A stretch of DNA of 64,000 bases. Source: a bacterium. Lineage in GTDB: Bacteria > Zhuqueibacterota > Zhuqueibacteria > Residuimicrobiales > Krinioviventaceae. Made by a program: the position numbers and the translations under genes. This document shows positions 18,867 through 36,510 of this stretch, piece by piece; position 1 is the stretch's first letter; each line of letters starts with the position of its first letter. Location of the stretch: the NCBI GenBank assembly GCA_029561455.1, contig JAKQIY010000068.1, positions 186,001 to 250,000 of the forward strand. Direction: 5' to 3'. Below the pieces are notes generated by a model, which searched no databases, had not been told where the DNA came from, and was given only the letters and a program-made list of their open reading frames with translations.

Positions 18867-20093
18867 TTATTGGAACAACGATAACACTGCCTGCGGCTGG
18901 GTATTAGCCTGAGCCAGCATTGCGGTCGCTGTTTGTTGCAATATCTGATACTTGGTCGAATTTAATTGCTCTTCAGCCATATCGGCATTCATGATGCGGC
19001 TGTAAGAGGATTCGGTATTCAGTTTTGCAACTGATAATGATTCTTCCTGGAAGCTGAGTCGATTGTACTGACCACCGATATATGACAGAGCTTCTTTCAC
19101 ACCGGAAATTGCAGTGTCGATCTTGGCCATAAATAACTGCGCAGAAGCCTGGTTGGATACACTGTTACCGCTCTTGGTATAATCAAAGCCGATAGACAGA
19201 GATTGCGCAGATGCAGTGGAAATTGCACCCAGATCAAGAGTTATGCCAACGCCAAGATTGATGACGGCCGGGTTTGCACCACCGGCGATTGTCGTACTCA
19301 GGGCAGTGCCGACATAATTGGTGCTGCTCAAGGTATCGGAATTAATGGTCATCAAAGCGCCGCTATCATCGCGAACTTCGATGCTGACGGTACCATTGGT
19401 AGTTACGCCGACATTCAATGTATAGTGACCCGTGCCTAATTCTTCAGTCAATGAATTCAATGACGAAGAGGTTGCCAGTGTGCCACTGATGCCGCCGCTC
19501 GCATTGGTATAACCAACACTTATCGAGCCGGTGGCGGATGAAGATGCAACTACATCCAGGCCTGATGAATTCAGTCCGGTGGACGCGATATTGCCCAATA
19601 CATCCAGTACCAATTCATCTTTTACCACATCATTACCGGTACCGATCTGGAAATTCATAACTCCAGTTAACATATTGGTACCAAACCAGTCGGCCTGGGA
19701 AATTTCCGCGTCAATCTGTGAATTGAATTTCTGCAATTCCTGCAAAATAGCGGTTCTTTCGTTTACACCCAGGGTGTCGTTAGCAGCTTGAATTGATTTT
19801 GTTTTCATCTGGTTCAAAATTTCCAGTACGTTGTTTAAATGACCTTCTGCGGTGGTCATTACGTTTTTGGCAGAACCAATGTTGTCAATCGCCTGTCCCA
19901 AACCTCTTGCTTTGGTATCGAGACCACCGGCAATTGCCATACCAGCAGCATCATCAGCGGCGGAGTTGATTCGTTTACCGGTCGCCAAACGTAACTGGTG
20001 AACACTCAGTTTCGAATTGATCGATTTTAACGAATTCAATGCACTCAACGCACCGATATTGGTATTAATCCGAGTGAAATCTGCTGTTGCCAT
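18867..20093 (-). CDS. fliC: Flagellin
   Basis: A 408-residue filament subunit. The N-terminal D0/D1 region (about 1-140) has INTNIGALSALNSL, LRLATGKRINSAADDAAGMAIA and QTKSIQAAND-like features. The C-terminal D1/D0 region (about 320-408) has SRIMNADMAEEQLNSTKYQI and ends QPQAVLSLFQ. The centre (about 165-320) is Ser/Thr/Gly-rich with many small residues, the part exposed on the filament and available for O-glycosylation. It starts six bases after AAGGAGG, has a sigma-28-type promoter about 110 bases upstream, a CsrA-like leader, and its own terminator. It is the only flagellin in the window. Confidence 0.97.
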   Translation of the reverse strand: MATADFTRINTNIGALSALNSLKSINSKLSVHQLRLATGKRINSAADDAAGMAIAGGLDTKARGLGQAIDNIGSAKNVMTTAEGHLNNVLEILNQMKTKSIQAANDTLGVNERTAILQELQKFNSQIDAEISQADWFGTNMLTGVMNFQIGTGNDVVKDELVLDVLGNIASTGLNSSGLDVVASSSATGSISVGYTNASGGISGTLATSSSLNSLTEELGTGHYTLNVGVTTNGTVSIEVRDDSGALMTINSDTLSSTNYVGTALSTTIAGGANPAVINLGVGITLDLGAISTASAQSLSIGFDYTKSGNSVSNQASAQLFMAKIDTAISGVKEALSYIGGQYNRLSFQEESLSVAKLNTESSYSRIMNADMAEEQLNSTKYQILQQTATAMLAQANTQPQAVLSLFQ

Positions 20094-20100
20094 GATATTA

Positions 20101-20191
20101 CCTCCTTGTTATGTTCCTTTCAGGCATCCATGCCTGTATTTTTTGCTTTTTGTGAACGACTGATATAATTTAGTTAGTTATTTATCTGTCC
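20101..20191 (-). promoter_or_regulatory. fliC leader with putative CsrA-binding sites
   Basis: On the mRNA four GGA motifs occur: AAAGGACAG (tcc at 20189-20191), the loop of the perfect hairpin CAGGCAT-GG-ATGCCTG (20121-20136), AAAGGAACA (20115-20117), and ACAAGGAGGU over the Shine-Dalgarno (20103-20105). ACAAGGA matches the core ACARGGA of the CsrA consensus. In Bacillus subtilis CsrA represses flagellin mRNA through such a leader, and FliW relieves it. csrA and fliW are adjacent at 35.8-36.5 kb. Confidence 0.65.
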
Positions 20192-20203
20192 TTTCACTTA
20201 TAT

Positions 20204-20230
20204 ATATCGACAAGAGGTAATAAAACTTGA
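20204..20230 (-). promoter_or_regulatory. Sigma-28 promoter of fliC
   Basis: TCAAGTTT, 11 bases, GTCGATAT on the minus strand, against the sigma-28 consensus TAAAGTTT-N11-GCCGATAA/T. Seven of eight bases match in the -35 and seven of eight in the Bacillus-type -10. The predicted start near 20197 gives a leader of about 104 bases. Confidence 0.75.
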
Positions 20231-33800: not shown

Positions 33801-34628
33801 TAATTGATAAGGAGTGGTATATACCCGTCCGGCGACGCCACGGTTGGCAACACCCTCAAAATAGGTAAGATTGGCGTCGCCACTAGCCCGTAATGAAATG
33901 AGATCATGAGTATCGTGAATAACTGGTGCTTTACCGGCCAGAGCAGCAACAGTCAGAATATCGGGTTCATTATGACAATGGACTAGATCGTACTGGCCGG
34001 AAATATCCCACAATTGCTTGTGAGTGGTTAACTGAATGCACGCGGTATAAACATTATCATCCAGACCGGGATACATTTGACTCAGCCGGGCGCGGGTCCA
34101 GGCCAGGGTTACAGAATGGCCACGTGTCCGTAACGCCGCGGCCATTTTATAATTACGGATACAAGGCGCTTCCTGGACAAAAAGTATATTAAATTTATCT
34201 CTTTCCCCGGATTGAGAAACGGCCGGTGGAAGTTTTTCATTGCTTTGTTCAATACTATGTAGCAGTTCCACAGCCCGTGAATTCTGTGGCTGCAAGGTAC
34301 AACACTTTTGAGCATACAACCGGGCATTATCATGATCTCCCGATTTACGAAAAACTTTGGCCAAATTCATTGCCGCATCAAAATATTGCGGGTCATTTTG
34401 CAATGCATGCTGCAAATGCGTTTTTGCCAGTTCAAGTTTATTTTGGGCATAATAAATAACACCAAGATTATTATGGATGACTGCATCATCAGGTTTTAAG
34501 AGCAGCGCTTTATTTAACAGCGCTACCGCATCATCTGTACGATTTGATTGCACTGCTTGCTGAACCTGTAACATGATTTGTTCATAACTGGCTTGCCCCG
34601 TGTTTTCTGTTTTGTTTTTATGCGCCAT
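30858..34628 (-). CDS. Giant multidomain protein: TPR, GT4, zinc-ribbon methyltransferase, helical toroid
   Basis: A 1256-residue protein. Residues about 15-125 are TPR repeats. Residues about 145-480 are a GT-B glycosyltransferase (FNILFVQEAP; HDTHDLISL; NKLFEYLAAGLPVF). Residues about 505-540 contain a CPICG...CPAC zinc ribbon. Residues about 540-770 are a class I methyltransferase (VLDIGCFDGLFLQQF; HQVLEHQADP). Residues about 860-1245 are helical with repeated hydrophobic pairs and motifs such as GWGFPYLRDNYN and RFAHFIRQQA, resembling an alpha/alpha toroid. It could bind the acceptor, transfer a sugar and methylate it. The C-terminal role is unknown. Confidence 0.85.
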   Translation of the reverse strand: MAHKNKTENTGQASYEQIMLQVQQAVQSNRTDDAVALLNKALLLKPDDAVIHNNLGVIYYAQNKLELAKTHLQHALQNDPQYFDAAMNLAKVFRKSGDHDNARLYAQKCCTLQPQNSRAVELLHSIEQSNEKLPPAVSQSGERDKFNILFVQEAPCIRNYKMAAALRTRGHSVTLAWTRARLSQMYPGLDDNVYTACIQLTTHKQLWDISGQYDLVHCHNEPDILTVAALAGKAPVIHDTHDLISLRASGDANLTYFEGVANRGVAGRVYTTPYQLQEAQQLYGSDGPSIVLYNYTSQADLPDVKLPKLSTRDGQVHIVYEGGIGGNTHRNFIELFRQLAQGNIHIHIYPTFYSQELADFFAQTANIHYYQPCSPKQIMEQMTQYDIGIIPFNLEKGNKRFLDSTIANKLFEYLAAGLPVFTSPLLSYIDFFNKYPVGKTFTTGSEIILAIPDLLEIAKKTDFSKYVFTYEHEISRLEDLYRTVIAARVKPPLATKLPLMADCPICGHTGCDLTIEQNGFKVHNCPACNTLFVHPRPDDQFLRNWYSEEEKKKRWNNDLQQAIIANHKQNEFNYCHYFKVLQETVTLTGKGKVLDIGCFDGLFLQQFKTMGYECTGIDLNEGLLRYGRENYGLDLKCGAVYDFRFPDNSFDIIIFHQVLEHQADPVAFITEVKRILTDDGIIFFSVPNAGALRYQLLGRYCPADSVQSILDLPNHLFYFSHSSLETLLTAGKFTNFIIKSYGQPDSINEFLKSQAATEQDVQDAKNQLLTYKNPSEEIYRYTGKVIKNTLANIAGEYEEKTDTQPGLLVIAGKLVGVNDKMESASDYVQNIPLLDSPPLALDDPNLIIHLSKAIIQLYKWLKLHGTVGYDPGDIDSKMLQLDTTAGQKVNRESYKTRQFSEPMQCRTELEIQQHIYPDSFGHFLTAFCLLPFELDDLNLTNRKQYCYETLLQGVNKDFTGLGWGFPYLRDNYNLLPAGVPDAITTYFVGDGLWNYFKNINDQEILNDCCRIAEFYASSLNRESDQDKIALSFSPIDYLFTHSANLFAAEFLLRLGMEVNNQEWIDLANTILQTSTDEISPEGFITKYTNSVKKQGITASCQHLDHVYHLLALTRISRLLKKPELDRQITLMMDHYSKTCFTNNLLPQEPGAQKTGVDTLTLGMIIILLAENAVLYKPAENILLRLLTWAFDHLITNSGSFVSHFSIHNGNVQVNRFAHFIRQQACIFNGLLHTLDYLNAHKPVNPVKTRLAQEVLS

Positions 34629-35773: not shown

Positions 35774-36019
35774 TCATTGTTTTTTCCCGTGTTGTTGCAG
35801 AGACAATGCCAGCGATGAATAATCCGCTTTCATACTTTCGCTTGCCGCGATCCGGTTCTGCTCCTGAACTTTGATATAAATTTCTTCCCGGTGAACCGGT
35901 ATATGTTTTGGAGCCTGAATACCGAGACGGATACTTTTTCCATGTATCTCCAGGATTGAAATTCGGATATCATTACCAATGGCAATCCCCTCCCCACGCT
36001 TCCTCGTCAAAATCAACAT
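35774..36019 (-). CDS. csrA: Carbon storage/translational regulator CsrA
   Basis: An 81-residue RNA-binding homodimer, beginning [18 protein letters not shown], with [19 protein letters not shown]. The strand 1 and strand 5 RNA-contact residues (LTRK and VHREE) are intact. The C-terminal 25 residues are longer than in Escherichia coli. It sits 29 bases after fliW, its antagonist, as in many non-enteric flagellated bacteria. The target expected from this pairing is the fliC leader, which carries four GGA motifs. The ATG follows AAGGAAAGC. Confidence 0.97.
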
Positions 36020-36048
36020 ATTTTGCTTTCCTTAGCATTAAGAGTTAA

Positions 36049-36510
36049 CTAATTTTGGCTTCCTGCCAACATTGGTTGTTTTAACGAATACTCACTTTCA
36101 CTTAATATTATTTGTTTACCTAAATTACGATTTTCATTAATAATAATCGGGCCCCGCAGGTTGGTGGTTACCTGGTGCACTTCCCTGCCAACAGTAACTA
36201 TTGAATAAACCTTGCCGGTTTTGGCACTATCCAGACCTATACTTTGCAATTCACCATTATTACTGGCAACCTGATAATCGGGCATTACCAGGTATGGATC
36301 GATTATGGGTAAAAATATCGAGGCATCGGTTATACAGATCAACCATTGGAATGGTTCATAACCTTCTTTATTATAAATGATAAACTTGGATTTATCTTCA
36401 AAACCAATAATCCCTTCGGGAAACAAGATAATCTCCTGTTCACTGTAGGGTATATCACCAAAGACCAGAGTCTTTACAATCTTCTGTTCTAAAACGGTCG
36501 TATCGGACAT
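36049..36510 (-). CDS. fliW: Flagellar assembly factor FliW
   Basis: A 153-residue protein with the FliW signature: FGDIPYSEQEIILFPEGIIGFEDKSKF, and near the end LRGPIIINENRNLGKQIIL. FliW binds either flagellin or CsrA. While flagellin accumulates in the cytoplasm FliW is held by it and CsrA represses flagellin translation; export frees FliW to inhibit CsrA. Length is normal, and csrA follows after 29 bases. The gene is placed between flgL and csrA in a run starting at flgN. Confidence 0.95.
   Translation of the reverse strand: MSDTTVLEQKIVKTLVFGDIPYSEQEIILFPEGIIGFEDKSKFIIYNKEGYEPFQWLICITDASIFLPIIDPYLVMPDYQVASNNGELQSIGLDSAKTGKVYSIVTVGREVHQVTTNLRGPIIINENRNLGKQIILSESEYSLKQPMLAGSQN

Follow-up and report, generated by a model that had tools for sequence, protein, structure and literature searches.

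The CsrA-FliW-Hag homeostasis that acts on the hag leader of Bacillus subtilis was reportedly described by Yakhnin in 2007 and by Mukherjee in 2011. The fliC leader analyzed here, which belongs to the candidate phylum KSB1, resembles that of hag in having two CsrA sites, one of them over the Shine-Dalgarno sequence (PMC7652899; PMC6529632), and the two systems further share a csrA gene adjoining fliW and a CsrA protein with N55 and a C-terminal extension. The differences are the other phylum, the predicted nature of the KSB1 sites (with the hag leader outside our alignment) and the presence of a separate ANGGAN hairpin at the ribosome-binding site of KSB1 csrA. In Campylobacter jejuni, where flaA is the main target of CsrA, a flagellin leader with two ANGGA motifs has been proven to be targeted by CsrA; there, too, both motifs are in loops, of which the second covers the ribosome-binding site, and relatives show compensatory changes (PMC4894983). 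However, that leader is 45 nt long, versus about 104 nt in KSB1, and C. jejuni csrA has no adjoining fliW. The csrA gene of E. coli has a CsrA site over its own Shine-Dalgarno sequence (PMC7652899), as we predict for KSB1 csrA; the two differ in that the KSB1 site is at the boundary of fliW and csrA and that E. coli, without FliW in a control search, uses CsrB/C. Since the circuit has already been reported to be conserved in deep branches (PMC6529632), the novelty of our findings is modest. A limited literature search returned no report of a CsrA-FliW flagellin leader in KSB1, and what is new here is the covariation evidence at the RNA level, the covariance model and the predicted autoregulation of csrA.

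The analyzed stretch of DNA (64,000 nt, hereafter the window) comes from a KSB1 genome of 5.85 Mb in 85 contigs. The fliC gene (18867..20093, minus strand, as are all leader elements below) encodes a 408-aa protein with Pfam Flagellin_N/C domains, the single filament flagellin detected in the genome (the other match of the genome search being only of the FlgL type), and is followed by fliS and fliD. A sigma28-type promoter, TCAAGTTT-N11-GTCGATAT (20204..20230), is predicted from a consensus match only, with three mismatches to TAAAGTTT-N11-GCCGATAA; most KSB1 relatives have a similar element 112-189 nt 5' of the flagellin start, mostly with a spacer of 11 nt. Placing the start site about 7 nt past the -10 element (~20197) gives a 5' leader of about 104 nt (20094..20197) before the ATG (20093). 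The sequence-only reading had counted four GGA motifs in this leader, and four are indeed present from 20197 to 20093: AAAGGACA (20191-20189), for which no conserved counterpart was recognized; CAUGGAUG (20130-20128), in the loop of the hairpin SL1; AAAGGAAC (20117-20115), in the linker and inconsistent among relatives; and ACAAGGAGG (20105-20103), in the Shine-Dalgarno sequence. The weight laid on this count needs correcting, as at least four GGA occur in 8-14% of Markov-simulated 110-nt leaders, and for this reason we dropped it as evidence. A stem of at least 5 bp on an ANGGAN hexaloop arises in 0.2-0.4% of the simulated leaders, so that the layout of the leader is unusual and the GGA count by itself unremarkable (P 0.002-0.004 vs 0.08-0.14). 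Among the 59 genes of the window (all of at least 110 aa), only three others have an ANGGAN hairpin near the start.

SL1, CAGGC[AUGGAU]GCCUG (20121..20136, hexaloop 20131-20126), is the putative upstream CsrA site. The earlier placing of a GGA in a hairpin loop stands, while the perfect 7-bp stem proposed with it has to be rejected, because in this fold of CAGGCAUGGAUGCCUG the loop would shrink to GG, an impossible size at 2 nt, and the A of the GGA would be base-paired. The feasible folds of CAGGCAUGGAUGCCUG have either 5 bp and the hexaloop AUGGAU or 6 bp and the loop UGGA, the latter being drawn in one computed fold. Except for U in place of R, the loop and its C-G closure fit the CsrA SELEX consensus RUACARGGAUGU, and they also fit the ANGGAN loop observed by NMR in RsmE-RNA structures (PMC7652899). 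The second site, SL2 (20101..20109), contains the GGA that had been assigned, correctly, to the Shine-Dalgarno sequence, C[AAGGAG]G; its loop AAGGAG is closed by C20108-G20101. In the window SL2 has just 2 contiguous bp, while several relatives have longer stems; the short stem and the 18 nt between the SL1 and SL2 loops set the KSB1 leader apart from that of C. jejuni flaA.

We consider it highly probable, judging from the sequence, that CsrA uses the fliC leader as a translational operator, with relief by FliW, in the manner of hag/flaA. By analogy with B. subtilis and C. jejuni, one face of a CsrA dimer would bind SL1 through the C[AUGGAU]G hexaloop, and the bound protein would tether its other face onto the Shine-Dalgarno site, blocking the ribosome. 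FliW would then bind the C-terminal extension of CsrA around N55 and lift the repression, and unsecreted flagellin could be expected to titrate FliW, which would couple flagellin synthesis to export.

Conservation of the GGA sites and covariation of the hairpin had been named beforehand as checks on the CsrA reading, and both turned out in its favor. SL1 together with a C[ANGGAG]G Shine-Dalgarno sequence precedes fliC in nine KSB1 families (f1, f4, f6, f7, f12, f15, f16, f17, and f18; in f12, SL1 is found in one of the two flagellin copies), and the same arrangement recurs in other phyla. The KSB1 pattern is GC[ANGGAN]GC, 32-59 nt 5' of the flagellin start, and a single genome (G022), with the same core, has a stem below the length set by our mechanical rule. 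The distance from loop to loop is 13-27 nt in all relatives but one (39 nt), a spacing that a single CsrA dimer could presumably bridge. The A and GGA of the loop and the inner two pairs are invariant in 18/18 KSB1 leaders and the outer stem covaries, the loop site thus being kept by compensatory changes. In a set of 20 leaders, from KSB1 and, in five cases, from other phyla, with some near-duplicates left out, the two-hairpin structure accumulated 36 double-changed cells versus 14.6 in shuffles, and its covariation score was 0.474 versus 0.165 in shuffles, none of 500 of which reached the true value; slid registers scored 0.04-0.16. As to the possibility that SL1 is an intrinsic terminator or attenuator and not a protein-binding site, on the plus strand CAGGCATCCATGCCTG is followed by TATTTTTTGC with a terminator-like score; however, such a terminator would act antisense to fliC, the recognized genes nearby being on the minus strand. 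The relatives lack the T-run but keep the ANGGAN loop, and invariance extends from this loop to the two pairs that close it and not over the whole stem. The antisense direction and the loss of the T-run in relatives led us to reject this possibility, which we regard as extremely improbable.

Family f9 is an exception to the conserved pattern: no upstream ANGGAN hairpin was found in its fliC leaders, despite the presence of fliW, of csrA encoding N55 and of an ANGGAG Shine-Dalgarno sequence. In three f9 genera (leaders L024, L025, and L027) a hairpin GCC[ANGG(C/U)N]GGC, resembling SL1 with GGC or GGU replacing GGA, is seen by eye further upstream of fliC. Besides, leaders of several KSB1 families (L006-L010, L017, and L031) contain a near-perfect Shine-Dalgarno sequence, (A)GGAGGUGA, about 80-140 nt 5' of fliC, often followed at a suitable distance by a start codon that opens a very short reading frame without conservation; a decoy, a third CsrA site and a leader peptide are candidate readings of this element.

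Both proteins of the proposed circuit are encoded in the window, as the sequence-only reading had recognized: fliW (36049..36510, minus strand; 153 aa) belongs to the CsrA antagonist family (Pfam PF02623, E 2e-34), and the adjoining csrA (35774..36019, minus strand; 81 aa, strong Pfam score) is the only copy in the genome. This CsrA keeps the RNA-binding residues L4 and R44 as well as N55, required for FliW binding (PMC13407953), and its C-terminal extension is present; chains of 5dmb, a solved structure of the CsrA-FliW complex, ranked best and second best among the matches of the window's CsrA and FliW, with FliW matching the FliW of that complex. These features bear on the alternative that CsrA binds the leader free of any regulation by FliW and is controlled by other means, be it a small-RNA sponge that escaped notice or a different protein. 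Sponges of the CsrB type were looked for with Rfam in the window only; on the other hand, the N55 and C-terminal extension needed for FliW binding are kept (PMC13407953), fliW abuts csrA, and an anti-correlation has been reported between fliW and the BarA-UvrY systems, which drive sponge sRNAs (PMC7652899). Control of CsrA by such other means, without FliW, is, in our opinion, highly improbable.

The distribution of FliW provides further grounds for a FliW-relieved CsrA operator. Among the 30 KSB1 genomes examined CsrA is encoded in 28 and FliW in 24; G001, of the same genus as the genome of the window, gave no flagellin, CsrA or FliW match. In family f10 (G031, G039, G042, and G045) flagellin and CsrA are present, though no FliW match was found; the f10 fliC leaders examined are without SL1, and the f10 CsrA is shortened to 65-70 residues with a reduced tail. 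Residue 55 is K in 2/4 of these genomes, compared with N in every FliW-bearing KSB1 genome, and it is P or S in Calditrichia without FliW. The correlation of FliW with SL1 within KSB1 rests on this one FliW-less family. In 50 genomes of other phyla, SL1 was found in 17/35 with FliW vs 2/15 without it (Fisher 0.018, kinship ignored), the expectation from shuffled leaders of this set being 0.16. The f10 and cross-phylum counts thus agree, while f9 has FliW without SL1. The association, and the decay of the FliW-contact region of CsrA where FliW was lost, lend support to the earlier suggestion of a likeness to the hag/CsrA/FliW circuit. Two Chloroflexi MAGs (L039 and L042) have a two-site leader with FliW not detected, and one of the two is also without CsrA; since the L039 genome encodes CsrA with N55, fliW may have been left out of its assembly. 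The same data weigh on the idea that the leader merely ensures a high flagellin output, as an mRNA-stabilizing hairpin combined with a strong ribosome-binding site and with no part for CsrA. Flagellin is abundant, the Shine-Dalgarno sequence AAGGAGG is near perfect and the binding of CsrA here is predicted, all of which would suit this idea; but mere stabilization would explain neither the A-N-G-G-A and C-G closure fixed in 18/18 KSB1 leaders next to a variable outer stem, nor the absence of the hairpin where there is no FliW. We therefore hold it to be very unlikely.

A covariance model of the leader was used for genome searches. In each SL1-bearing KSB1 genome the fliC leader was the top match of the full model (with a tie in G046), and this included G007 and G028, whose leaders were outside the training set. 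As members of the family had partly trained this model, a leave-one-out model was built without the leader of the window; it gave this leader 40.8 bits and rank 1 genome-wide (E 4.7e-6), the next match having E 0.34. The model found no other target above chance in the genome of the window, and the element therefore looks dedicated to fliC there. In G046, the match tying with the fliC leader precedes a FlaG-like gene; it is a full two-site copy of the leader (L168:1501-1547), located after fliD, and CsrA may therefore control more than flagellin in this organism. No family of Rfam 15 matches the window at the gathering score, and in the relatives Rfam gave only two weak matches, both outside the leader.

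As for csrA itself, its ribosome-binding site lies in a covarying hairpin, UGCU[AAGGAA]AGCA (36024..36037, minus strand), a predicted CsrA site. ANGGAN hairpins with differing stems occupy the same position in KSB1 families f1, f6, f7, f15, and f17, being absent in f4, f9, f10, f12, f16, and f18, and compensatory changes conserve the hairpin: when the flanks were re-paired among genomes, equal agreement was obtained at P 5e-5. The csrA leader may have a second site in the hairpin UUGGC[AGGAA]GCCAA near the end of fliW (36055..36069, minus strand), to which a similar GGC[AGGAC]GCC corresponds in G007 and a weaker one in G002. When the window is searched with the fliC-leader model, this hairpin falls within the third-ranked match; as the csrA leader scores only 12 bits there, support for that leader comes from the separate flank test. 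The fold of the csrA leader is no more stable than its shuffles (z -0.25). The two hairpins suggest that CsrA limits its own synthesis in KSB1, as in E. coli (PMC7652899).

The homeostasis circuit of CsrA, FliW and flagellin is hereby extended, with evidence at the RNA level, to an uncultured phylum, in support of flagellin control as an old role of CsrA; the covariance model can trace the leader element in other phyla, and autoregulation of csrA is predicted in FliW-type systems. We propose tentatively, and with less than even confidence, that the two-site CsrA leader might be an ancient RNA element of flagellin genes, widespread across many phyla and outside Rfam, with a related device on the ribosome-binding site of KSB1 csrA, so that FliW would set the synthesis of flagellin and of CsrA in one closed loop.

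Two more hairpins of this kind were observed in the window. One, GGCUC[AUGGAC]GGGCU (34661-34646), is located about 28 nt 5' of a gene of 1256 aa starting at 34628, with AACAGGGAAAGC near the start of this gene, and could be a further CsrA site downstream of csrA. The other, CCGUUU[AAGGAA]AAGCGG (44664-44647), spans the Shine-Dalgarno sequence of a response-regulator-like gene (44644-44270), upstream of which a sigma28-like element GCCGATAA is found (~44879).
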